From a virus, in the IMG/VR virus record IMGVR_UViG_3300029448_000566, positions 1 to 20,429 of that record: 20,429 nt of DNA; one strand, given 5' to 3'. The notes under the pieces were generated by a model, which worked only from the letters and a program-made list of their open reading frames with translations, did not search any database and was not told the DNA's origin. This document shows, piece after piece, positions 1,155 through 16,617 of the stretch; the stretch's first letter is position 1, and each line of letters begins with the position of its first letter. Made by a program: the position numbers and the translations under genes.

Positions 1155-1757
1155 TTAGTTCCAACGGTTACGAATAGTAACCCAAATGATTGCTTGAAAT
1201 ACGTAGGCAGGGATACCGAACTCGGCAGCTACCTTGATGGTTTCTTGAGACAGTACTTTGTACTGGTTTGGGGTGACTGATTCACGACATTGCTTGGACT
1301 TGAGAGACGAAGTCTGACAGGCCCGCAGGTGCCACTTGTCGATGGTCACGAAGTTACCGTCCAGCTCACCGACATTACGAGCGAAAGCGTAGGTCTTGGG
1401 GGACTGCTTCAGGATCTTGGCATCGCCAAAGGCGATAGCAAAAGCCTTGCGTTTGTTAGCACCATAGGTGCAAACCTTGACATCATCGGGTGACTTGCCG
1501 TCTCGTACTGCTTTCAGCACTTGAATGGTGTCATACTTGTTGCGCTCCCACTTGTTGTTGGGGGACAGGGCAGAGATGACTCCGGCAGCAACCTCTCGTG
1601 ACACATCGAAGGTGTCTGACATCTGACGTGAGAAGGTCTGTGCCTCGGTGTACCATACGGCACCCTGAAGGAGTTCTGCTTTGGTGGCTCGTGAGAACCA
1701 AGTTCGAAGGTTGCGACGAATCTGTTTGCGTGACGCAGTTGATGTGAGATCTTGCAT
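1155..1757 (-). CDS. Probable HhH-GPD-like (DUF7178-type) phage protein, 200 aa
   Basis: I place the start at ATG 1757-1755 (MQDLTSTASRK) because it follows the shared leader CAAAACTCACATC; the longer frame to 1805 would begin within a few bases of the expected transcription start. The sequence contains GVISALSPNNKWERN, YGANKRKAFAI, a K-T-x-x-F-x-x-N block (PKTYAFARNV) and a VTIDKWHLRA block. This order resembles a phage family that I know as DUF7178, whose fold resembles HhH-GPD DNA glycosylases and reads AAGVIAALSPRTxWxxN, GxKTxxFxxNI, VTVDxWxxR. A role in DNA base handling is therefore possible but unproven. It is the first gene after promoter 1805-1837 and probably heads a transcript covering 1-1757. 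Confidence 0.6.
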   Translation of the reverse strand: MQDLTSTASRKQIRRNLRTWFSRATKAELLQGAVWYTEAQTFSRQMSDTFDVSREVAAGVISALSPNNKWERNKYDTIQVLKAVRDGKSPDDVKVCTYGANKRKAFAIAFGDAKILKQSPKTYAFARNVGELDGNFVTIDKWHLRACQTSSLKSKQCRESVTPNQYKVLSQETIKVAAEFGIPAYVFQAIIWVTIRNRWN

Positions 1758-1838: not shown

Positions 1839-2198
1839 TTATTTTTTCCCTTCGGGGTAGGCTTTTGGGACTCGACCTTTCATGAACGAAGGTACATAAG
1901 CATAGACGCTCCACATGGAACGGGATGCTTCGCAGTCGATCTCGATTGCAAAGGCTCTCAACTTTTCAGTTGAAGCAACACCTGCCATGAAGCGGCTGTG
2001 ATCATCTGACATAACGTATGCCCAGTCGTGTTGCTGGAGCATTTGTTGAAACTGTTCTAACTTATTCATTTTCATTTCTGAACGGTTGAAATTACGCACA
2101 ATAATATTACACACCTCAGTCAACACCTCCTGTGGCTGTCCGTCTAAGTAAGTCAGCAAATCTTGCTGAATCTGCTCTTTTAATTCTACTTTGTTCAT
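1839..2198 (-). CDS. Hypothetical protein, 119 aa
   Basis: The start is placed at ATG 2198-2196, preceded by CATTGAAA, the same 8 nt that precede the start of the next gene upstream (2619). This leaves 10 nt after the upstream stop. The protein opens with an acidic helical part (MNKVELKEQIQQDLLTYL) and later has the block FAIEIDCEASRSMWSVYAYV. It ends in a basic tail with PKAYPEGKK. A second in-frame ATG at the block MKMNKLEQFQQML could be used to make a shorter form. No family is recognised. Its 3' end abuts promoter 1, whose -33 box lies just below the stop codon. Confidence 0.6.
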   Translation of the reverse strand: MNKVELKEQIQQDLLTYLDGQPQEVLTEVCNIIVRNFNRSEMKMNKLEQFQQMLQQHDWAYVMSDDHSRFMAGVASTEKLRAFAIEIDCEASRSMWSVYAYVPSFMKGRVPKAYPEGKK

Positions 2199-2208
2199 TT
2201 TCAATGGT

Positions 2209-2619
2209 TTACCAACGTGACTTAATATTGTAAGCGTGCTCTTTGCCCTTGACGGTGAGACCTCCGGTACCGCTCTTCCCGTAGGGATCGAGCCAATTCG
2301 AATCCCGGTCATGAAGGGATTGCAAGTCCATGATTTGCTCGGTAGTGAAGTGTGCATACTCTCGCTTCAGGACAGCCATGCGACAAACGTACTTCCACGA
2401 AGGTTGCTCCTGAGCATCCATACCGTAAAAGTCAGTAGCTGACTCGTCACATAAGCGTGCGGCAGCACATCGCTCACCGCTCGGCCCGGAGTACCTGCAC
2501 ATAGAGCCATGTCCGTTTCTCGGTCTTACGAGTGAACGGGGGTTGTTGGTGTAGTACTCTACAGTTTCATCGACCAACTCAGCGAAGGTCATCGGGGTGG
2601 TTTGTTTTGTTTCTTTCAT
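2209..2619 (-). CDS. Hypothetical phage protein with C-x(9)-CA motif, 136 aa
   Basis: The start ATG at 2619-2617 follows TTCATTGAAA, an upstream sequence shared with the gene at 2198. A longer frame to 2670 would run into the upstream gene and is not favoured. The protein carries CRYSGPSGERCAAARLC, which resembles small phage proteins that I recall with C-x-Y-x-G-x-x-G-x-x-CAVGCLI. In those proteins the motif follows a helix such as TFAELVDETVEYYTNNPRS, as it does here, and precedes an acidic segment. Their function is unknown to me. The C terminus has RDSNWLDPYGKSG. The Cys arrangement may bind a metal, but this is inference. Confidence 0.6.
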   Translation of the reverse strand: MKETKQTTPMTFAELVDETVEYYTNNPRSLVRPRNGHGSMCRYSGPSGERCAAARLCDESATDFYGMDAQEQPSWKYVCRMAVLKREYAHFTTEQIMDLQSLHDRDSNWLDPYGKSGTGGLTVKGKEHAYNIKSRW

Positions 2620-2644
2620 TTTCAATGAATTAAAATAGGTGATC

Positions 2645-2854
2645 TTATTCAGCGTACTTCCATCCGGCACTCTTGCCGTTCATCACATCTGTGTAGAACA
2701 GGAGTGACATGGGTTTGTGGATGCGGTTCACACCTTTGTATTGACCGATGAAGGTTTTCATCTCAGCCTTGGTGTGGACTTTACCGTTCCGAGAACGGAA
2801 GGAACCGTCAATGTAGACGGTACCAAACCTTGTTTGCATTTTTACTTTGCTCAT
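2645..2854 (-). CDS. Hypothetical basic protein, 69 aa
   Basis: ATG at 2854-2852 lies 11 nt after the stop of the gene above it. The protein is basic (MSKVKMQTRFGTVYIDGSFR) and has a compact pattern of short strands followed by a helix (HTKAEMKTFIGQYKG). It contains no Cys and no membrane segment. A perfect hairpin CCGTTC-CGA-GAACGG lies inside it at 2784-2798. No homologue is recognised. Confidence 0.6.
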   Translation of the reverse strand: MSKVKMQTRFGTVYIDGSFRSRNGKVHTKAEMKTFIGQYKGVNRIHKPMSLLFYTDVMNGKSAGWKYAE

Positions 2855-2865
2855 AGCGGTTTTGA

Positions 2866-3411
2866 TTAGTAGTCCTCTGGACTAAGTTTGTGGTCTAATG
2901 TGTTCTCGTAGAGAGGGTATAGTACGATTGTACCGGGGTCATTCCATGACAAGTACCATCCGTACTTCGTCAGAAGTTCTTTGAACTTCATCAGCACACC
3001 ACCGTCATACGGTGAGTTACCACAGTTCTTACAATCACCGTACTGGTAGTAATCGAAGATTTTAAGTTTATCCTGTCCGTAGGACAGTTCGACGGTCATA
3101 AAGTATGGATCATCGTCGTACTCAGCCGACATCCAAATTCCATCGGCATGAGTCTTTGTGATATTTGAGGAATTCAGCTCATACCCTTCGAAGTATTCGT
3201 TGGGCTGAACATGAAGTAGCTTCATGTCTTCGATCAGCCATGTCATCATCTGATGACGGTTCTTCATACCGAAGCTGAAGAATTCAGAGAACGACTTTTC
3301 AAGTCGTGCTTTGTTGTCAGGCGAAGCCCTGAGCCATGCTTCGAGCATTGTGGTGTGGAATGAACCGTGGTTCATTTGCAACTGGTTGTGAACCCAATCG
3401 AACTTGTTCAT
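2866..3411 (-). CDS. Hypothetical protein, 181 aa, with CxxC
   Basis: The start ATG (3411-3409) has the recurrent leader CAAAATTCACATC. The N-terminal half is helical (MNKFDWVHNQLQMNHGSFHT...), the middle has ADGIWMSAEYDDDPYFMTVELSYG, and a DCKNCGNSPYDGG segment near residue 130 contains a single CxxC. The C terminus is TIVLYPLYENTLDHKLSPEDY. I recognise no family. This gene holds one of the densest runs of micro-hairpins in the window: 2951-2967, 2973-2989, 3073-3087, 3209-3227, 3242-3257, 3291-3307 and 3359-3376, all perfect. Confidence 0.65.
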   Translation of the reverse strand: MNKFDWVHNQLQMNHGSFHTTMLEAWLRASPDNKARLEKSFSEFFSFGMKNRHQMMTWLIEDMKLLHVQPNEYFEGYELNSSNITKTHADGIWMSAEYDDDPYFMTVELSYGQDKLKIFDYYQYGDCKNCGNSPYDGGVLMKFKELLTKYGWYLSWNDPGTIVLYPLYENTLDHKLSPEDY

Positions 3412-3494
3412 GATGTGAATTTTGAATTACATTCAGCTATCTCGTCAGTACACCTTGCTGAAGGGTGCAGACTCCCCGAAGGGGGAGTTTCGAA

Positions 3495-3854
3495 TTAGTC
3501 CTCAAGGACTGTCAACCATACAGGGTATGGATTGCCGCTGTTAGCGGAGATTTTGTAGACACAGTAGCTGCCTTTCTTGGACTGATAAACAGTCCGACCT
3601 TCGAAGCGGAACTCGGTAGCCTCACCGATCCAAACGGCATAGCCGTTTCCGGTGCGGGGTGACATGCACTTGATGTACTGCGAACCGCTTTTGGTGTTGA
3701 AGATTTCGAAGACTTGTTCGTCGATTGTAATCGACTCGTTCGTATGCACTCCGCTTTCGATGTCGAAGCCACCACTAGAAGTGGTTGTGAAGGTTTGTGC
3801 TTGTGAACTGATGGCGATAGCCATTACGAGGAGGATTGAAAACAGATTTTTCAT
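3495..3854 (-). CDS. Secreted small protein with signal peptide, 119 aa
   Basis: The N terminus MKNLFSILLVMAIAISSQAQ is a classical signal peptide: a Lys, a hydrophobic core of about 12 residues, then SSQA before QTF. A cleavage site after A18 or A19 is likely, and SQA-Q endings are common in flavobacterial secreted proteins. The mature part of about 100 residues is beta-rich, with two Cys (IKCMSPRTG and GSYCVYKIS) that could form a disulphide in the periplasm. It lies directly after the lipoprotein gene 3884-4033 in the same direction. Phage-encoded envelope proteins of this size often block later infections, but nothing in the sequence proves that here. Confidence 0.7.
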   Translation of the reverse strand: MKNLFSILLVMAIAISSQAQTFTTTSSGGFDIESGVHTNESITIDEQVFEIFNTKSGSQYIKCMSPRTGNGYAVWIGEATEFRFEGRTVYQSKKGSYCVYKISANSGNPYPVWLTVLED

Positions 3855-3869
3855 TTATGAAAAGGGTTT

Positions 3870-3886
3870 AGATTAAACTTCGTTTA
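3870..3886 (-). repeat. 17-bp direct repeat, copy 1 (hairpin TAAAC-GAA-GTTTA)
   Basis: The minus-strand sequence TAAACGAAGTTTAATCT occurs here and again, identical, at 4047-4063, so the two copies flank the lipoprotein gene. The first 13 bases form a hairpin with a GAA triloop. In this copy the TAA is the stop codon of the lipoprotein gene. Confidence 0.85.
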
Positions 3887-4033
3887 CCAGTTGCGGATGC
3901 AGTCTGGGGTTTGTCCTTTGGACAGCTTGGTCACCTTGCCATGCTTGATCTGATACGTGGCTTGGGTGTTGTTGCTCATAGAGCAAGAAGCGAGGAGGAG
4001 TGCTGCTGAAGCAGCAAAGAGAAACTTTTTCAT
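3884..4033 (-). CDS. Small lipoprotein, 49 aa
   Basis: A short frame, ATG at 4033-4031 to TAA at 3886-3884, encodes a 49-residue lipoprotein. The N terminus MKKFLFAASAALLLASC is a lipoprotein signal with a lipobox LASC, so C17 would be lipidated, leaving a mature chain of 33 residues. That chain is basic and ends with GQTPDCIRNW, with a second Cys at 45. The leader (CAAAATTCATGTC) resembles the recurrent leftward leader. The gene lies between two identical 17-bp repeats and immediately upstream of a secreted-protein gene. Very small phage lipoproteins such as Llp of T5 block receptors; this is an analogy, not evidence of function. Confidence 0.75.
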   Translation of the reverse strand: MKKFLFAASAALLLASCSMSNNTQATYQIKHGKVTKLSKGQTPDCIRNW

Positions 4034-4046
4034 GACATGAATTTTG

Positions 4047-4063
4047 AGATTAAACTTCGTTTA
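4047..4063 (-). repeat. 17-bp direct repeat, copy 2
   Basis: Identical to 3870-3886. Here it lies in the upstream leader of the lipoprotein gene, 13 nt before its ATG, and can form the same TAAAC-GAA-GTTTA hairpin. Confidence 0.85.
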
Positions 4064-4064
4064 G

Positions 4065-4108
4065 AACTGCACCGGGGAGTCGAACCCCGGTCGAAGACCG
4101 TCACAGTT
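4065..4108 (-). other. tRNA T-arm-like structured element
   Basis: On the minus strand the segment contains GGTTCGACTCC, an exact fit to the tRNA T-arm/B-box consensus GGTTCGANTCC, with a 6-bp stem (CCGGGG/CCCCGG, 4072-4090). A second partly overlapping hairpin CGGTC-GAA-GACCG (4088-4100) and an outer stem AACTG/CAGTT (4065-4069 with 4104-4108) close the element. I could not find D and anticodon arms or a 5' acceptor strand upstream; the gene 4119-4265 occupies that place. It is therefore not a complete tRNA. It could be a tRNA remnant, part of an attachment site, or an unrelated RNA structure. Confidence 0.5.
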
Positions 4109-4118
4109 GCGGCGTGTG

Positions 4119-4265
4119 TCACGCCTCGCCAATCATCTGCTCTACGAGCATCTGATCATCGACAGACAGTTCATCGAACTGCTTAGTGTTGGTAGCGTTC
4201 TCACCAAAGGTGAATACGAGGTCTTGGAGGGCTTGCAGCTTTGCTGCTTTGAGTGCTTGTGTCAT
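4119..4265 (-). CDS. Hypothetical small acidic protein, 48 aa
   Basis: The start is placed at ATG 4265-4263 (MTQALKAAKLQALQDLVFTF) because the recurrent leader CAAAACATCACATC precedes it and promoter 2 sits 50 nt upstream; a longer frame to 4346 would start inside that promoter. The product is a single helical segment followed by an acidic tail (ELSVDDQMLVEQMIGEA). No domain is recognised. Its stop codon lies inside a perfect hairpin GGCGTG-TGT-CACGCC (4111-4125). Confidence 0.6.
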   Translation of the reverse strand: MTQALKAAKLQALQDLVFTFGENATNTKQFDELSVDDQMLVEQMIGEA

Positions 4266-4314
4266 GATGTGATGTTTTGAGTGAGTGCCGTGGCTTAGTG
4301 CCGATCGACGGTTA

Positions 4315-4347
4315 CAAAGATAAGGGATTGCATTCGACAAATCCAAA
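4315..4347 (-). promoter_or_regulatory. Leftward promoter 2 (Bacteroidota type)
   Basis: TTTG (4347-4344) then 21 nt then TATCTTTG (4322-4315) on the minus strand. The element is nearly the same as promoter 1, including GGA after the -33 box, TCGAAT in the spacer and TCCCT before the -7 box. Transcription should start near 4309 and give a leader of about 44 nt that contains CGATCGGCA. It would drive the 4265, 4033, 3854 and following genes. Confidence 0.8.
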
Positions 4348-4466
4348 TCTAATTTCTATAATAACTTTCTACCTTCGGTAAGGGGGCCATTATTGCCCCA
4401 TGTGAGTGCAGGAGTGCGATCGCTCAGGATCAGACGCTTGGACACGGGGGGGGTGAGCAAACGACT

Positions 4467-4553
4467 TTAGTCGTTGTCGATGAGTAGTATGATGATTCCT
4501 GCAATTACAGCGATTGAAAATCGCAGTAAAAGTCCTTGAGTTGCTATGTCCAT
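4467..4553 (-). CDS. Putative single-pass membrane peptide, 28 aa
   Basis: A 28-codon frame starts at ATG 4553-4551 after the leader CTAAACTCATCGAAG, which closely matches the leader of the gene at 5613 (CAAAACACATCGAAG). The product begins MDIATQGLLLRFS and has one uninterrupted hydrophobic stretch (IAVIAGIIILLI) ending in DND. This is the form of a small transmembrane peptide. The shared leader and the position directly after the 4565-4912 gene make it likely to be translated, but a frame of this length can arise by chance. The stop lies beside an AACGACT/AGTCGTT inverted repeat. Confidence 0.45.
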   Translation of the reverse strand: MDIATQGLLLRFSIAVIAGIIILLIDND

Positions 4554-4564
4554 CTTCGATGAGT

Positions 4565-4912
4565 TTAGATTCGTACTTCTTGACCTTTTGCAAGGTCAAA
4601 GTAGGCAATTTCGTTTTCTGCTTCGCAGTATTGGCGGGCTTGCTCGGGGGTGTCAAACACCTTGCTTGCCTCAACCCAAAGGGTTTCACCGTCTAACCAA
4701 CCACCGATAAGTTCGTGGTCACCTTCGAAGAAGGTGTGGATAGCTCTTGCAAGGTCGTTTGGTTCCGTAGCATCAAAGCTTTGCTTGATGAAGGTTTCGG
4801 TTGCTACTACGTAGCCTTCGCTTGGTGCGCTTGCTTGCTTGTCAAGCGTGAAGCCACCGGAGTTTTCTATGCTGAAAAGCATAGCTTTTAGGATCTTGGT
4901 TTTCTGCTCCAT
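4565..4912 (-). CDS. Hypothetical protein, 115 aa
   Basis: ATG at 4912-4910 is preceded by the recurrent leader ending CTCACATC. The protein starts MEQKTKILKAMLFSIENSGG and continues with a mixed alpha/beta pattern and a C-terminal block DTPEQARQYCEAENEIAYFD followed by LAKGQEVRI. It has one Cys and no membrane segment. No family is recognised. Perfect hairpins at 4580-4599, 4720-4736 and 4867-4884 lie inside the coding sequence. It probably belongs to the transcript that starts at promoter 3. Confidence 0.65.
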   Translation of the reverse strand: MEQKTKILKAMLFSIENSGGFTLDKQASAPSEGYVVATETFIKQSFDATEPNDLARAIHTFFEGDHELIGGWLDGETLWVEASKVFDTPEQARQYCEAENEIAYFDLAKGQEVRI

Positions 4913-4950
4913 GATGTGAGGGTTTAGAGGGTTGTAATACTAAGCTTCGC

Positions 4951-5613
4951 TTAGAAGAGGCTGATCTGACCTGAAAGGTCATCCATAGTTACATCTTCTT
5001 CGAAGATCAAGTCTTCAGTCTCGATATCGAAGATATCTTGCAGGGCCAAGTGCTTGGCGTAGCGAGCCGCTTCCACTGGACACTGTCCTTCGGACAGCTC
5101 GAAGGGGACTTCAGAAACCTTCGGTTTGTTCTGCTTTGCAGACTGCTTCGGGGTTTCGATGTAGCTTTCAGCTACATTCGCTTTGGCTTGCTGAACCTCC
5201 AACCGCTGGTTGTGGTTGAGCTTCGCTCTACGATTCACAGTCTTCGACTGTGCTTTCAGATCAGCCTTCGGCTGAATGTCAGCTTTGCTGAACTTGGTGG
5301 CCATAGCCCGAGCCGTCTTCCGCTTCTTGTACTCTCCGAGTACAGTTTCACCTTCGGTGACTTGGTACATTCCAGAGACAGAGTCTCTACGGACTTTGAT
5401 ACCCTCCACAGTCTTCGACTGTGCTTTCGGCTGAGACTTAGTTACAGTCTTCGACTGTCGCTTAGAGGCAGGGACTTCCAAGCTATCAACGTAGTTGATA
5501 AGCTGGTTGATCGCTGCTTTAGCAGCCTTGATGCGCTGCTCCGAAGGAGCGAAAGATGCTGAGTTGACTGAAGCTTTAACCTCCTTCAGGAGGTCGATTC
5601 GTGTGCTTGACAT
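4951..5613 (-). CDS. Basic, low-complexity protein with C-terminal sliding-clamp-binding motif, 220 aa
   Basis: The start ATG (5613-5611) follows CAAAACACATCGAAG, 40 nt or so after the expected start of promoter 3; the longer frame to 5676 would run through the promoter. An N-terminal helix (MSSTRIDLLKEVKASVNSAS) is followed by Lys/Gln/Ser-rich linkers with QSKTV three times, a small domain (IKVRRDSVSGMYQVTEGE) and an acidic C-terminal part. The last residues are GQISLF, a strong fit to the bacterial beta-clamp-binding peptide (QLSLF-type). The protein may therefore dock on the host or phage sliding clamp. Its place as first gene of the leftward set fits an early role. No enzymatic domain is visible. 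Confidence 0.65.
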   Translation of the reverse strand: MSSTRIDLLKEVKASVNSASFAPSEQRIKAAKAAINQLINYVDSLEVPASKRQSKTVTKSQPKAQSKTVEGIKVRRDSVSGMYQVTEGETVLGEYKKRKTARAMATKFSKADIQPKADLKAQSKTVNRRAKLNHNQRLEVQQAKANVAESYIETPKQSAKQNKPKVSEVPFELSEGQCPVEAARYAKHLALQDIFDIETEDLIFEEDVTMDDLSGQISLF

Positions 5614-5658
5614 CTTCGATGTGTTTTGAGGTCGGCGGCTTCGGTGCTGCCGACGCCA

Positions 5659-5691
5659 CAAATCTACGGCGATCAATTCGAGAATTCCAAA
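5659..5691 (-). promoter_or_regulatory. Leftward promoter 3 (Bacteroidota type)
   Basis: TTTG (5691-5688), 21 nt, then TAGATTTG (5666-5659) on the minus strand, with the same GGAATT and TCGAAT segments as promoters 1 and 2. Transcription should start near 5653, and the leader to the ATG at 5613 carries GTCGGCA, again like the other two. This is the most upstream of the three leftward promoters. Confidence 0.8.
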
Positions 5692-5693
5692 TC

Positions 5694-6151
5694 TTTTTTT
5701 GCTGATAAAAAAGTACCCCCGTAGGGGGTAGGAGCCCCATCAGACCGTGTGCGTATGCATGTGCGGAGACGTGAGCAGCCGCCGTGCTTCGCACTGTATA
5801 GGCGTGTGCATGTGGCCCCGAAGGGGGAGTCTACCAAGTCGGTAGGGTAATGGGGTTGGTGGTTTGTCCCCCAAAAGAAACAGACCCTTAGGTCTGAGGG
5901 ATACCACCCGGTCGTCAAAAGCTACCCACCAGAGCAGTAGGTACGGAGTACCTAGCAAAAAGCTGAAAAGTGTCGGCCAACCCGGTGCGCATAATGCCCA
6001 CGGGGTTCGCAGATGCGTTCGGGTGTGCGTGTGCGTACGCTTATAGGTACGTAGAATCCCCACCATCTACATTACTCACCCCATTTTTGCGTACCCAAGA
6101 TACAGTCCTACAGCGTTTTACGCAGATATGCTTAAAGTAAAGCTTTAGCAC
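5694..6151. other. Gene-free control region with alternating purine-pyrimidine tracts
   Basis: No credible gene lies here; the minus-strand frames that cross it have histidine/threonine/arginine-rich low-complexity translations and no start context. The region holds the leftward terminator, perfect hairpins at 5881-5896 and 5938-5954, weaker ones near 5817-5827 and 5831-5845, and three strictly alternating purine-pyrimidine tracts at 5746-5765 (20 nt), 5802-5814 and 6023-6040 (18 nt) built from GTGTGCGT-like units. It separates the leftward early promoters from the rightward promoter, as an origin or switch region would. Confidence 0.5.
5704..5730 (-). terminator. Leftward intrinsic terminator
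   Basis: On the minus strand a 7-bp stem TACCCCC-TAC-GGGGGTA (5730-5714) is followed by C and six T (5713-5707). This has the form of a Rho-independent terminator for transcription moving left. It lies just upstream of promoter 3, so it would stop transcripts entering from beyond 5730; no gene is seen there to need it. Confidence 0.65.
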
Positions 6152-6432: not shown

Positions 6433-6828
6433 ATGAAAGCTCTCAAGAAGAAATACGATGAAGGTGGTCGCTTGGAGCGCCAGCTGAAGCGTAAGAAACG
6501 CAAGCTTGCTAAGATCACCCCGCAAGAAGGAAGCGGTCCTGCAAAAAGTGCTGGCACTACAGGCATGATGGGATTTGATATGGGTGGTAGTGGTGGATGC
6601 CCTCCCGGCCAGAAGCGTGGAACGAAGGGTAGCTGTGAGAAAGGAAACCTCAGAGCAGAGAAGTCTGTTGCCGCAAAGGGGTTGAAGAAAGAAAAGACCA
6701 AAGCAAACCTTGCAGGTAAGGGACTGCCTCAGAAACGCAAGAAGCTTACTGCGGAGATCAGTGATCTCGAGAAGAGATTGAGAGCAATGAAGAAACCCGG
6801 TAAGTTCAGCAACCCTAGATTCCTATGA
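6433..6828 (+). CDS. Lys/Gly-rich hypothetical protein, 131 aa
   Basis: The gene starts at ATG 6433 after TATATTTGCAGGT. The protein is strongly basic and of low complexity: a Lys-rich helix (MKALKKKYDEGGRLERQLKR), a Gly/Met-rich stretch with GTTGMMGFDMGGSGG, a CPPGQKRGTKGSC segment with two Cys, and a C-terminal coiled-coil-like helix (KKLTAEISDLEKRLRAMKK). Lys/Gly-rich proteins near phage structural genes can be DNA-binding or internal virion components; that is inference. It overlaps the next gene by 4 nt (ATGA), which indicates coupled translation. Confidence 0.7.
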   Translation: MKALKKKYDEGGRLERQLKRKKRKLAKITPQEGSGPAKSAGTTGMMGFDMGGSGGCPPGQKRGTKGSCEKGNLRAEKSVAAKGLKKEKTKANLAGKGLPQKRKKLTAEISDLEKRLRAMKKPGKFSNPRFL

Positions 6829-11317: not shown

Positions 11318-12028
11318 ATGATAACTGTTGCACTACCGACTTGGAATAGCAGCCCTATACTTTGGTTGCAGCTAGAAAGCCTTTGCAGGCAAGTAGATGC
11401 GCCTAAGTTTGAGGTTATCGTCATGGAAGACCCGTCAGAAAATTTTGCTGGTGAGAAATACGTGATGCAGTTTGCAGACAGGATGAAAGAGGTAGGGGGA
11501 GATCTTAGATATGTTGAGCTTGATAAATGGATACCTCTGGGATCAAAATGGAGAGAGATAGCTCTTATTGCTAAGTACGATATATTTTGTTTAGCCGCCA
11601 GCGACAATTACTCCCCACCAGACAGACTAAAAGTTACATCTGAGTACTTTGAAAAAGGGTGTAACTGGTTTGATGTTAGGCAAGGTCTTTTCTACAACAT
11701 AAAGACGGGTGCATCTAGTTGCTGGCACAATAACAATCTAGAAGACACTGGGCTCTTTATGGCTACTAACACGGACTTCATAAAAAAACTAGACGGTCCC
11801 GGCCCAAGCAAATGTATTGACAATTGGATTAGATCTCAAATAAAAGGCAGAGTTAAGTCCTCTGAGTTGAGAATGAACGGGCTGCATACGGACGGGTATA
11901 ACAATATCTCAATAAGAAGGGGTAAGTATAAAGAAGCGTACCCCAAAAGGTTTACAAATCCGTACATGCCAGTTGAAGAAATAGTGCCTAAGGATATTTG
12001 GGATAGACTAATATCAATGAAATGCTGA
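11318..12028 (+). CDS. Family 2-like glycosyltransferase, 236 aa
   Basis: The N terminus ITVALPTWNSSPILWLQLES followed by LCRQ is a standard GT-A start (strand, T-x-N loop, long helix). Next come FEVIVMEDPS, the position of the first nucleotide-binding acidic pair, and LIAKYDIFCLAASDNYSPPD, where SDN sits at the DxD site. The remaining part has LEDTGLFMATNTDFIKKL, typical of the acceptor side. The base composition is visibly more A+T-rich than in the genes on both sides, a sign of separate acquisition. It overlaps the terminase start by 7 nt. The target (DNA, capsid or host glycan) is unknown. Confidence 0.65.
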   Translation: MITVALPTWNSSPILWLQLESLCRQVDAPKFEVIVMEDPSENFAGEKYVMQFADRMKEVGGDLRYVELDKWIPLGSKWREIALIAKYDIFCLAASDNYSPPDRLKVTSEYFEKGCNWFDVRQGLFYNIKTGASSCWHNNNLEDTGLFMATNTDFIKKLDGPGPSKCIDNWIRSQIKGRVKSSELRMNGLHTDGYNNISIRRGKYKEAYPKRFTNPYMPVEEIVPKDIWDRLISMKC

Positions 12029-14142
12029 TCGAAGTAGAAGGCTATGAAGATAAAGCTGTTGTGGTGGACCCTCGAGGGACACACGGTGAAGTCATCGACA
12101 TCGACGGGCTACTTGTTGCGCTCCCGAAGAAACCACCCAAGAAAGAAATCCTATTCGCTGAAGAGCCTCGGAAGATGCAGATGTGGCGAAGGCTTGACGT
12201 GCCGCAAGAGCTGTCGTCAATACGAAGTATGGATGAGTGGTATGAGAAACCTGCTGAGTTCAGGAAAAAATTTCTTCCATATATCGAAAGGGAATTTGAC
12301 CGCCGCCGTAACGGTGTTTGGTTTTACAATAATGGGGAGCCTACGTACATTACAGGTAGGCACTACATGCTACTCCAATGGACGAAGCTTGATATTGGAC
12401 ACCCATACTACTTCGCTTTCCAGAGGAGGATTTATCTCCATATGGCTGCTTGCGAAGCTGACCCTCGTTGCATCGGCCAGCTTTATACTAAGTGTCGCCG
12501 TTCTGGTTACACTAATATCTGTTCTGCGGTTCTTGTGGATGAGGCTACACAAGTTAAAGACAAGCTGCTGGGCATTCAGTCAAAGACTGGTAAGGATGCT
12601 CAGGAGAACATCTTCATGAAGAAGACGGTGTCGATGTTTAAGTCGTACCCATTCTTCTTCAAGCCTATTCAAGACGGTACCACCAACCCACGCATGGAGC
12701 TGGCGTTCCGAGAGCCGTCGAAACGAATCACAAAGAACAACAAGACATCCACTAAGGGTGATGCGCTGAATACAGTCATCAACTGGAAGAACACCACTAA
12801 CAACGCATACGATGGTGAGAAGCTGCACATGCTGTACCTCGATGAGGCTGGTAAGTGGGAGAAGCCAGCGGATATACGTGAGGCGTGGCGTATTGAGCGT
12901 ACCTGTCTGATCGTGGGTAGAAAGATTGTGGGGAAGGCTCTGGTCGGATCTACAGTAAACCCAATGGACAAAGGTGGTGAGGAGTTCCGTGAGCTATGGG
13001 ATGACTCCGATCCTACAGAGCGTAACGCCAACGGTAGGACTAAGAGCGGACTGTACGGGCTATTCATTCCGGCCTATGACGCACTCGAAGGATTCTTTGA
13101 CCAGTACGGCAACTGCGTAACCGAAGACCCGGAAGAACCTGTAATGGGTATAGACGGGGAGATGATCGAAATTGGGTCAAAGACATACCTGAAGAATGAG
13201 CGGGATGCAATGAAGAACAATCCCAAGGAAATGAATGAGCTCGTGAGGCAGTTCCCTTGGAGCATCGATGAGGCGTTCCGTGACAGTATCGAGGGGAGCG
13301 TGTTCAATGTGGGTAGGATCTACCAGCAGATTGACCACAACAACAACCTGTTTCCAAACCCAGTGGTGAAGGGTAACTTCATGTGGAAGGAGAAAGACAA
13401 AGAGGTTGTGTTTACACCAGACCCGAACGGAAGGTTCCGTGTATCGTGGCAACCCGACCCAGAGCACAGGAATAAGTTTGGGACTGAGCGTAATGGGCGT
13501 AAGTCTCCAGCTAATGCCCACGTTGGTGTAGGAGGGGTGGATAGCTATGATCTGGACCAGACTTTGGATGGAAGAGGATCGAAAGGCGCAATGCACTTGT
13601 ATAACAAGTTCAATATGCAAGCCCCTTCAAATATGTTTATTCTGGAGTATGCATCCCGCCCAGACCTCGCAGCAATATTCTACGAGGACTGCCTCATGGC
13701 TGCATTCTATTACGGATATCCGCTGTTGATCGAGAACAACAAGTACGGGATAGCTAGGTACTTCGAGAAGCGTGGGTACGATAACTATTTGCTAGACCGT
13801 CCTTCACACCTTTCGAGCGCAAGTGCTAAAGTAAAAGTTAGAACAAAGGGTGTCCCATCTAACTCAGCAGATATGATCCAATCTCATGCTCAAGCTATTG
13901 AGGCTTATATACATAGCCATGTTGGTATCAGAGCAGAGACCGACGAGATGGGGGCTATGTATTTCAATAGAACGCTTGAAGACTGGATTGCATATAAGAT
14001 CGACAAGAGGACAAAGTATGACCTTACAATCTCATCAGGACTTGCCCTACTTGCTGCTCAAAAGGTTAAACAAGAGAAAGTAAAAAGCAACTTCAATGAG
14101 AAGCAGTTCTTCCGTAGGTACAAGCCAAAATCCTTCCACTGA
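12022..14142 (+). CDS. terL: Terminase large subunit, 706 aa
   Basis: This is the ATP-driven DNA packaging motor and nuclease. Residues near 156-163 read KCRRSGYT, a deviant Walker A of the R-x-G-x-S/T kind seen in phage terminases. LYLDEAG near 270-276 is Walker B, with the catalytic Glu directly after the Asp. GSTVNPMDKGG near 309 is the coupling motif. The C-terminal RNase H-like nuclease has VDSYDLDQT near 506, LLIENNKYG near 567 and a later SNSADMIQSHAQAI block with the third acidic residue. The phrase TKSGLYGLFIPAYDALEGFF recalls crAss-like terminases, a relation I cannot test here. Confidence 0.9.
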   Translation: MLIEVEGYEDKAVVVDPRGTHGEVIDIDGLLVALPKKPPKKEILFAEEPRKMQMWRRLDVPQELSSIRSMDEWYEKPAEFRKKFLPYIEREFDRRRNGVWFYNNGEPTYITGRHYMLLQWTKLDIGHPYYFAFQRRIYLHMAACEADPRCIGQLYTKCRRSGYTNICSAVLVDEATQVKDKLLGIQSKTGKDAQENIFMKKTVSMFKSYPFFFKPIQDGTTNPRMELAFREPSKRITKNNKTSTKGDALNTVINWKNTTNNAYDGEKLHMLYLDEAGKWEKPADIREAWRIERTCLIVGRKIVGKALVGSTVNPMDKGGEEFRELWDDSDPTERNANGRTKSGLYGLFIPAYDALEGFFDQYGNCVTEDPEEPVMGIDGEMIEIGSKTYLKNERDAMKNNPKEMNELVRQFPWSIDEAFRDSIEGSVFNVGRIYQQIDHNNNLFPNPVVKGNFMWKEKDKEVVFTPDPNGRFRVSWQPDPEHRNKFGTERNGRKSPANAHVGVGGVDSYDLDQTLDGRGSKGAMHLYNKFNMQAPSNMFILEYASRPDLAAIFYEDCLMAAFYYGYPLLIENNKYGIARYFEKRGYDNYLLDRPSHLSSASAKVKVRTKGVPSNSADMIQSHAQAIEAYIHSHVGIRAETDEMGAMYFNRTLEDWIAYKIDKRTKYDLTISSGLALLAAQKVKQEKVKSNFNEKQFFRRYKPKSFH

Positions 14143-14166: not shown

Positions 14167-16617
14167 ATGTACAGCCAGAACAATAAGAATAAATCCGGCT
14201 TTCCAGATCCTCTAGAGTCGAGGCTAATTAAGGAAGGCAAGGAATACGGGCTGAGATTTGCTAAGGCTATCCTCGCTCAGTGGGGTAGCATGGGTGAAGA
14301 TCAGTCATTGATCAGAAAGAGATCACGTATATTCCACAAGAATCGGAGATACGCTAACGGTACTCAGGATACATCTATCTACAGGCAGATCCTGACATCA
14401 CTTGACCCATCAAACAGTGACGGTAGTTTGCTGAACTTGGACTTCAGTCCAGTACCTATCCTACCTAAGTTTGTTAGGATTGTAGTCAACAAGATTCTAT
14501 CAAAAGATCCATACCCCAACCTCGAAGCAGTTGATCCTTTGTCTTCTTCTGAGAAAGACAAGCAGCGCAGAAAGGTTGAGATGATGATTCGCCATAAGGA
14601 GCAGCTTCAGGCTCTCCAGAAGCAAACAGGCGTTCAGGCTGAGAATGTAGATGCAGTTCCTGAAACCCTCGAGGAGGCTGAGATCTTTATGGATAACAAC
14701 ATAAAGTCTTCGTCAGAGATCGCTGCACAGATTGCGACTAATCTTACTCTCGAATGGAATGACTTTAGTGACAAGATATATCGTCGCTGCGTAGAGGACT
14801 TGGTTACTCTTGGCATGGCTGTAGTCAAGAGAAGCAACGATCCTAACTACGGTATTGCAGAAGAGTACGTAGACCCAGAGACCTTTGTACATAGTTACAC
14901 TGAGGATGCCGGGATGAATGACCTCATCTACGCAGGTCACTTGAAGTCAATGCCTATCCACGAGCTCAAGCGTATTGCAGGGGATCAACTCACCGAGGAG
15001 GACTTTGCTGCCATCGCAAGAAAGGCTCAGAAGAAATATGGGTATGACAGCTCAAAGCTGCACCAGACTAGCTACGATAATTATCTGAAGCGTCAGAAGT
15101 TTGGGTATGACGAGTACATGGTTGAGGTTCTTGACTTCGAGTTCAAGTCCGTTGACTGCATGTACTATGAGTCAAAAGAAAATAAGTACGGTAATGTTGG
15201 GTTCTTCTTCAAAGGTGAGAACTACAAGGAGCCAACTAACTCACTGTACAAAAGGGAAGTAACTAAGCTGGAGAACGAAACTATCTACGGCGGTTGCTAC
15301 GTTGTCGGTTGTGACATGCTGTTTAACTACGGTATCAAAACCAACACCCCTAAGAATATTCACGATATCTCAAGAGCAGAACTTTCTTACTCTTGTGCTG
15401 CCACCAACATGCGGGACATGATCCCCAAGTCTATGGTGGATGGTTGTGTTGGCTTTGCCGATCAGATCAACATCACACACCTCAAGATTCAGCAAGCAGT
15501 TGCTAAAGCTAAGCCTGACGGTATCATCATTGATATCGAGGCTCTTGAGAATGTACAGCTCGGGAAAGGTGGTGAGCTTCAGCCGCTTGAACTTCACGAC
15601 ATCTATGAACAGACGGGCGTATTCTATTACCGATCTAAAAACCCTGAGGGCGGTTTTCAAAACCCGCCAATCAGAGAGATCGGCAACTCCATTCGTAATA
15701 TTAACGAGCTTGTTGGTATTTATAACCACTACCTGAGAATGATCCGTGACACCACGGGTATCAATGAGGTAATGGATGGGAGTACACCCAAAGGAGATGC
15801 TCTTGTTGGTGTACGTCAGCAAGCTATCGCTGCGGGTAACAACGCAATCTACGACATCACCAATGCCTCAATGCTTCTGTTTAAGAAGGTGTGTAGAGAC
15901 ATTGTTAAGTGTGTTCAGATCGTACCTAAAGAATCTCTGCTGTTTGGCATTTACGCCAATGCGATTGGTAAAGAGAATATGGATCTGCTTTCTACGTTCG
16001 AGAATCTGGTAATGTACAACTTCGGTGTCACTGTCCAGAAAGAAATGGAGGAAGTAGAGAAGCAGTACTTAGAGCAGAACATTCAAATCTCGCTCTCACA
16101 AAAAGAGCTTGATATTGAGGATGCTATTGCAATCCGTCAGCTAAAAGACATCAATCAGGCAGAGCGACTGCTTGTGGTGAGACGTAAAAAGAGAATGGCT
16201 GCAAATCAGCAGATGGCTCAGCAGAATTCTCAGATGCAAGCACAAGTTCAAGCCCAAGCAGCACAGGCTGCTTCTCAGGGTAGAATGCAAGAGATGCAGA
16301 TGGAGGCTCAGATCGAGTCTCAAATGCTTCAGATGAAAACTCAGATGGAGGCCCAGATGGAGCAGATCAAGCATGAGCACAGAAAAGAGATTGAGCTTAT
16401 CAGAGCTCAGGCTACTCTTGGATTCAAGACTGATGAGCAAGAGTTCAAAGAGAAGCTCGAAGTACTCAAGGAGGATCGTAAAGACGAGCGTGTTGAGAAG
16501 CAAGCCGTTGAGCAGTCTAAACTGATCTCCCAAAGAAAAGGAGATCGAGGAGAACTCAAGAAAGGTGAGAAGTCATCTGATACATCAGACATCATTGACC
16601 AACTAATTAACCAGTAA
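14167..16617 (+). CDS. Probable portal protein, 816 aa
   Basis: The gene follows the large terminase directly, where portals are found, and its length (816 aa) fits the large portals of marine and crAss-like phages. The N-terminal part is mixed alpha/beta (for example VRIVVNKILSKDPYPNLEAV, typical of portal N-terminal lobes), and the middle has DVTG-like DTTGINEVMDGSTPKGDALVG, a block that recalls the conserved TGIN/GxxP segment after the portal stem region. The last 150 residues are a long Gln/Met/Glu-rich coiled coil (QMAQQNSQMQAQVQAQAAQA), a portal barrel-like extension. It forms the DNA entry ring and meets the terminase there. Confidence 0.75.
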   Translation: MYSQNNKNKSGFPDPLESRLIKEGKEYGLRFAKAILAQWGSMGEDQSLIRKRSRIFHKNRRYANGTQDTSIYRQILTSLDPSNSDGSLLNLDFSPVPILPKFVRIVVNKILSKDPYPNLEAVDPLSSSEKDKQRRKVEMMIRHKEQLQALQKQTGVQAENVDAVPETLEEAEIFMDNNIKSSSEIAAQIATNLTLEWNDFSDKIYRRCVEDLVTLGMAVVKRSNDPNYGIAEEYVDPETFVHSYTEDAGMNDLIYAGHLKSMPIHELKRIAGDQLTEEDFAAIARKAQKKYGYDSSKLHQTSYDNYLKRQKFGYDEYMVEVLDFEFKSVDCMYYESKENKYGNVGFFFKGENYKEPTNSLYKREVTKLENETIYGGCYVVGCDMLFNYGIKTNTPKNIHDISRAELSYSCAATNMRDMIPKSMVDGCVGFADQINITHLKIQQAVAKAKPDGIIIDIEALENVQLGKGGELQPLELHDIYEQTGVFYYRSKNPEGGFQNPPIREIGNSIRNINELVGIYNHYLRMIRDTTGINEVMDGSTPKGDALVGVRQQAIAAGNNAIYDITNASMLLFKKVCRDIVKCVQIVPKESLLFGIYANAIGKENMDLLSTFENLVMYNFGVTVQKEMEEVEKQYLEQNIQISLSQKELDIEDAIAIRQLKDINQAERLLVVRRKKRMAANQQMAQQNSQMQAQVQAQAAQAASQGRMQEMQMEAQIESQMLQMKTQMEAQMEQIKHEHRKEIELIRAQATLGFKTDEQEFKEKLEVLKEDRKDERVEKQAVEQSKLISQRKGDRGELKKGEKSSDTSDIIDQLINQ

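Follow-up and report, generated by a model that had tools for sequence, protein, structure and literature searches.

Phage T4 gp33 and gp55 are small phage proteins that attach to a sliding clamp through a C-terminal peptide; the clamp is that of the phage, and for late transcription they also bind RNA polymerase. Partners of the bacterial beta-clamp (DnaN), such as Pol III alpha, Pol IV/DinB and Hda, have a disordered stretch that contains a Q-aliphatic-x-L-F peptide. The canonical clamp motif is Q-aliphatic-x-[LM]-[FL], or a version one residue longer, and its affinity may be increased by negative flanks or by a free C-terminal carboxylate (PMC11139829). Another small phage protein, Gp168 of phage Twort, inhibits the beta-clamp by sitting in its DNA channel rather than in the motif pocket (PMC11139829). 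The C-terminal tip of SSB (DDDIPF or DDLPF) is a second established docking peptide, for which the terminal Ile-Pro-Phe is required (PMC10143822).

The DNA analysed here, the window, is a virus record of 20,429 bases taken over its whole length. Its terminase (12022-14142) matches PHROG 6681 and is less than 60% identical to the terminases of Flavobacterium (Elemovirus) and Cellulophaga phages, a kinship from which the host is likely to belong to the Bacteroidota; membership of the Crassvirales is not claimed. A family 2 glycosyltransferase-like gene (11318-12028, plus strand) lies directly upstream of the terminase.

A gene at 4951-5613 on the minus strand specifies a 220-residue basic protein with a putative docking tail, the C-terminus of which (EDLIFEEDVTMDDLSGQISLF, then the stop codon) ends in QISLF. 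As in the DnaN partners, a Q-aliphatic-x-L-F peptide is found in a disordered region, and as in several polymerases it stands at the extreme C-terminus; unlike those partners, the protein has no polymerase or repair domain, belongs to an unnamed phage family in which the motif is not conserved, and is a putative clamp binder. Compared by description, it shares with gp33 and gp55 a small size and a (here proposed) C-terminal clamp peptide, although their target is the phage clamp and the target proposed here is that of the host. The comparison with Gp168, also by description, is between two small phage proteins, with action on the host clamp being only proposed for the one in the window. Like SSB, most members of its family have an acidic tail with -PF at or close to its end, in several cases exactly DDLPF, whereas the window protein lacks a Pro-Phe end and is predicted to begin with a helical hairpin instead of an OB fold. 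The reading preferred here, to which a little less than an even chance is given, is that of a basic tether whose docking tail may serve as a clamp-binding peptide in the window lineage.

A basic protein at the start of the leftward block

The sequence-only reading had described the gene as the first leftward one, and it does head the leftward block; early expression, which that reading also supposed, is plausible. Upstream, at 5659-5690 on the minus strand, is a promoter-like site of the Bacteroidota type (TTG-N-TAnnTTTG), recognised purely as a pattern match, and in the whole window this pattern occurs nine times (two of the matches overlapping) against about 1.8 expected by chance. Three similar promoter-like sites (TTGGA..T.TCGAAT...TTTG) precede leftward genes, at 5659-5690, 4315-4346 and 1805-1836 (all minus strand), and have counterparts in L003 (IMGVR_UViG_3300025889_001241), a close relative. 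The same block encodes a DUF7178/PHROG 3842 protein (1155-1757, minus strand).

An AlphaFold2 model of the 220-residue protein, built with nine homologues, had a mean pLDDT of 57, and therefore only its N-terminus is regarded as trustworthy. There, helices at residues 5-21 and 25-45 form a hairpin (residues 5-45; 5479-5601, minus strand; LLKxxKxxVNxxxFxP), with pLDDT mostly 70-90, and alignment shows this to be the best-conserved part of the family. It is followed by a basic chain (residues 51-170; 5104-5463, minus strand) that contains QSKTV repeats, carries a net charge of +17, and is probably disordered, given the low-confidence model of this part and the variation of the linkers among close relatives. 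Further helices were predicted at residues 134-149 and 179-200, and a predicted helix region, LSEGQCPVEAARYAKHLALQDIF (5029-5097, minus strand), aligns with LLxGExPxEAxxRxR of the relatives. The acidic tail (residues 201-220; 4954-5013, minus strand) has no predicted structure over its 20 residues, with pLDDT below 50 at the end, and the net charge of residues 195-220 is -9. The description of the chain as Lys-rich and flexible was thus borne out, as was the statement that GQISLF closes the protein after an acidic segment, the translation ending MDDLSGQISLF. On the minus strand, G215 is encoded at 4969-4971, QISLF at 4954-4968 and the stop codon at 4951-4953, so that the clamp-motif-like end occupies 4951-4971. 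The putative motif accordingly sits in an accessible stretch that is predicted to be disordered.

Compared with viral protein structures, the model gave no match at E 0.001, and no match to the OB-fold SSB domain PF00436 was found in the window record, a helical hairpin being predicted instead. Direct searches of phages, plasmids and genome contigs with the window protein returned nothing useful; a Vibrio phage match (E 0.7) was dropped since it lay inside a very large protein. Homologues were recovered by starting from the terminase neighbours and then searching with a two-sequence profile, and the distant ones are encoded on the minus strand at the corresponding place, upstream of the virion block. 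After additional scans there were 30 complete members, and the family matched nothing in Pfam or PHROGs. As judged from profile and alignment, this is a previously unnamed phage protein family, characterized by the LLKxxKxxVNxxxFxP helical hairpin and a basic chain behind it, to which the window protein belongs.

Tails of the family and triloop hairpins

Among the 30 complete members, 14 end in -PF (ADTAPF or AETAPF in eight, TSDDLPF in three, INVPF in two and DFGDSPF in one), and six more, among them L118, which is split in two frames, have PF followed by two to four further residues (FSDLPFDPTH/C, IEELPFQL and LNEVPFTL). The others end in LEPSFAPAV (six), have no tip (two) or end in QISLF (two). 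It follows from this list that QISLF is not conserved in the family, the usual tail being an SSB-tip-like -PF, and in this respect the clamp-binding tail proposed from the sequence is partly contradicted. A degenerate DNA scan for DDLSGQISLF recovered only the known relative, L003. The protein of L003 is 84% identical to that of the window and differs mostly in the Lys-rich linkers, while the last ten residues are the same in both. Their last ten codons and the stop codon are identical in nucleotide sequence, and the pair therefore cannot reveal selection on the peptide; that QISLF occurs in two of 30 members with identical final codons counts against a clamp-binding role.

QISLF nevertheless meets the definition of the canonical clamp motif in full. 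The corresponding site was located in 14 Bacteroidota Pol III alpha sequences by means of a downstream anchor motif: ten of them have QxSLF (QASLF, QVSLF, QNSLF, QSSLF or QESLF), one has QVNMF, and the other three have SASLF, TSSLF or ENSLF. DinB-type proteins carry QIDLF, QLDLF, QINLF or a C-terminal QLKLF. The window tail therefore spells a host motif. From the amino-acid composition of the relatives, the chance of such a C-terminus is about 4e-6 per protein for Q[LIVM][SD]LF and about 1.1e-4 for Q..LF, figures which overstate the surprise because the motif was chosen after the fact.

The DNA itself offers another source for the tail. Two perfect triloop hairpins flank the tail codons. The first, TGACCT-GAA-AGGTCA (4967-4981), covers the codons for DDLSG together with two bases of the Gln codon, and the second, CTAAGC-TTC-GCTTAG (4940-4954), spans the stop codon; L003 has the two in identical form. 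In the window as a whole there are 43 perfect hairpins of this design (6-bp arms, 3-base loop) against about five expected, 34 of them within 2000-6000. The gene at 4951-5613 contains 12, compared with a mean of 1.3 and a maximum of five in 200 synonymous shuffles, whereas the plus-strand virion genes have numbers near expectation. The excess lies inside the leftward coding genes, is densest at 4900-5500, and is also present in L003, L242, L117, L118, L093 and L115. A non-homologous gene of L003 has eight hairpins of its own within about 400 bases, and paired changes distinguish two hairpins between the window and L003. A near-identical hairpin, CACAGTCTTCGACTGTG, recurs in the gene at 5236-5252, 5407-5423 and 5444-5458, where its copies encode the QSKTV repeats, and L003 has no repeats at those places, a pattern that in-frame insertion or copying of the hairpin would produce.

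Whatever builds these hairpins may therefore dictate part of the tail and give part of the motif a neutral origin. Since hairpins account for some of the nucleotide identity between the two tails, this identity was rejected as evidence for the peptide. It is conceivable that the resemblance to a clamp motif is incidental, the tail having arisen by drift and by the hairpin-building process and docking on nothing; the eight family members with no recognisable tip are also in keeping with this. However, the I, S, L and F codons fall outside the first hairpin, an exact C-terminal motif has a chance probability of the order of 1e-5 per protein, and the -PF tails across the family far exceed chance. 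An incidental origin is, on balance, unlikely.

SSB-type tips in hosts and relatives

A Bacteroidetes-labelled MAG containing a related terminase contig encodes two SSBs, which end in GDDDLPF and EAADLPF, and of the 23 SSB C-termini read across a sample of the phylum, 19 had LPF or IPF ends, mostly DDLPF. Similar ends occur in the phages. In related phages, a protein of 100 residues that adjoins a PDDEXK exonuclease and a DnaB-type primase-helicase ends in SSDLPF, SSDIPF, QDDMPF, QDDLPF, ESADLPF or VEDIPF (L126:13804-14106, minus strand; L132:10300-10608, plus strand; L129:3751-4056, minus strand), and was present in ten of the 12 large relatives. It matched no Pfam or PHROG family and its AlphaFold2 model was of low confidence; from position, size and tip, we infer that it is a candidate for an unrecognised phage SSB. 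The replication block of L126 also encodes a small protein (15853-16221, minus strand) whose match to the DnaA DNA-binding domain falls just short of the cut-off (31.2 against 31.5 bits).

A PF end is present in six of the 275 open frames listed for four relatives, where 0.4 would be expected, and all but one of the six belong to the basic-protein family or the 100-residue SSB-like family. With the excess concentrated there, the basic proteins probably obtained their -PF tails by copying the SSB tip or by convergence on it. Since this position carries, across the family, SSB-tip-like peptides identical to the ends of host SSBs, the tail is taken to be a general docking site. Acidic C-termini ending in [IL]-P-F are seen in L028, L046 and L087, while the window (DDLSGQISLF) has no such end. 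L016 and L020, both of which have FSDLPFDPTH, form the sister group of the window pair in the terminase tree (support 88/99), and the simplest history would be that an SSB-like tip of the family gave way to DDLSGQISLF in the window lineage.

The tail of the window protein could itself be a divergent SSB tip, binding host or phage partners of SSB (RecO, PriA, primase, nucleases) and not the clamp. The frequency of -PF at or near the ends of the family, the occurrence of DDLPF as the tip of both host SSB and the likely phage SSB, and the retention of an acidic DDL and a terminal Phe in the window all favour this. Against it, the Pro of the required Ile-Pro-Phe (PMC10143822) is missing, SGQISL separates DDL from the Phe, and the PFDPTH ends of the sister clade indicate that a free terminal PF is not always retained. 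This reading seems rather improbable. That the protein is instead a virion or assembly component (e.g., DNA-packing or scaffold-like) with a tail that binds a phage structural protein is very unlikely: the gene adjoins the virion block, which also encodes small basic proteins such as that at 6433-6828 (plus strand), but it lies on the opposite strand to the virion genes, heads the leftward block, has a promoter-like site of its own, and has relatives whose tails match the SSB tips of host and phage.

Host replication and the proposed docking role

PolA, PolB, Pol III alpha and clamp genes were sought in 12 relatives of 44-72 kb, and none was detected, while controls were positive. As the records of these relatives are linear and could be fragments, the absence is suggestive and falls short of proof. 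A phage-encoded clamp as the partner of the tail was rejected, none having been found in the 12. Showing no polymerase or clamp gene, the large relatives probably use the host replicase; that some such viruses without replication genes depend on their hosts is established (PMC11348598).

The clamp-binding reading of the QISLF tail stands in part. The motif definition, the disordered acidic end, the QxSLF sites of the host, the retention of the pentapeptide in L003 despite diverged linkers and the large relatives in which no polymerase or clamp was detected speak for it, and the unconserved pentapeptide in the family speaks against it. The sequence-only reading had seen neither the likeness to the SSB tip nor the hairpins that contribute to coding the tail. 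In the preferred explanation, the N-terminal helical hairpin would be the folded part of the protein and the long, basic, probably disordered chain could lie on DNA. At its end the acidic, disordered tail would present a short peptide that docks on a host replication protein; in most of the family this peptide would imitate the C-terminal tip of SSB, and in the window lineage it would have become the clamp-binding peptide QISLF. QISLF may then keep the sliding clamp of the host, or the replicase bound to it, close to phage DNA; alternatively, it may compete with the clamp partners of the host. Recruitment, rather than inhibition, would be the presumed outcome.

For the family as a whole, the proposal is more tentative still: its members would be basic tethers whose C-terminal docking peptide can be exchanged, mimicking the SSB tip in most lineages and being a clamp motif in one, and phages without a polymerase might in this way seize the host replisome at different points of contact. 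The two types of tip provide a ready comparison of SSB-type and clamp-type capture, with peptides that are short and cheap to test. If the proposal is true, viruses devoid of their own polymerase would tie host replication proteins to their DNA with only a few residues, and the family would be an example of a docking contact that has changed its target in the course of evolution.
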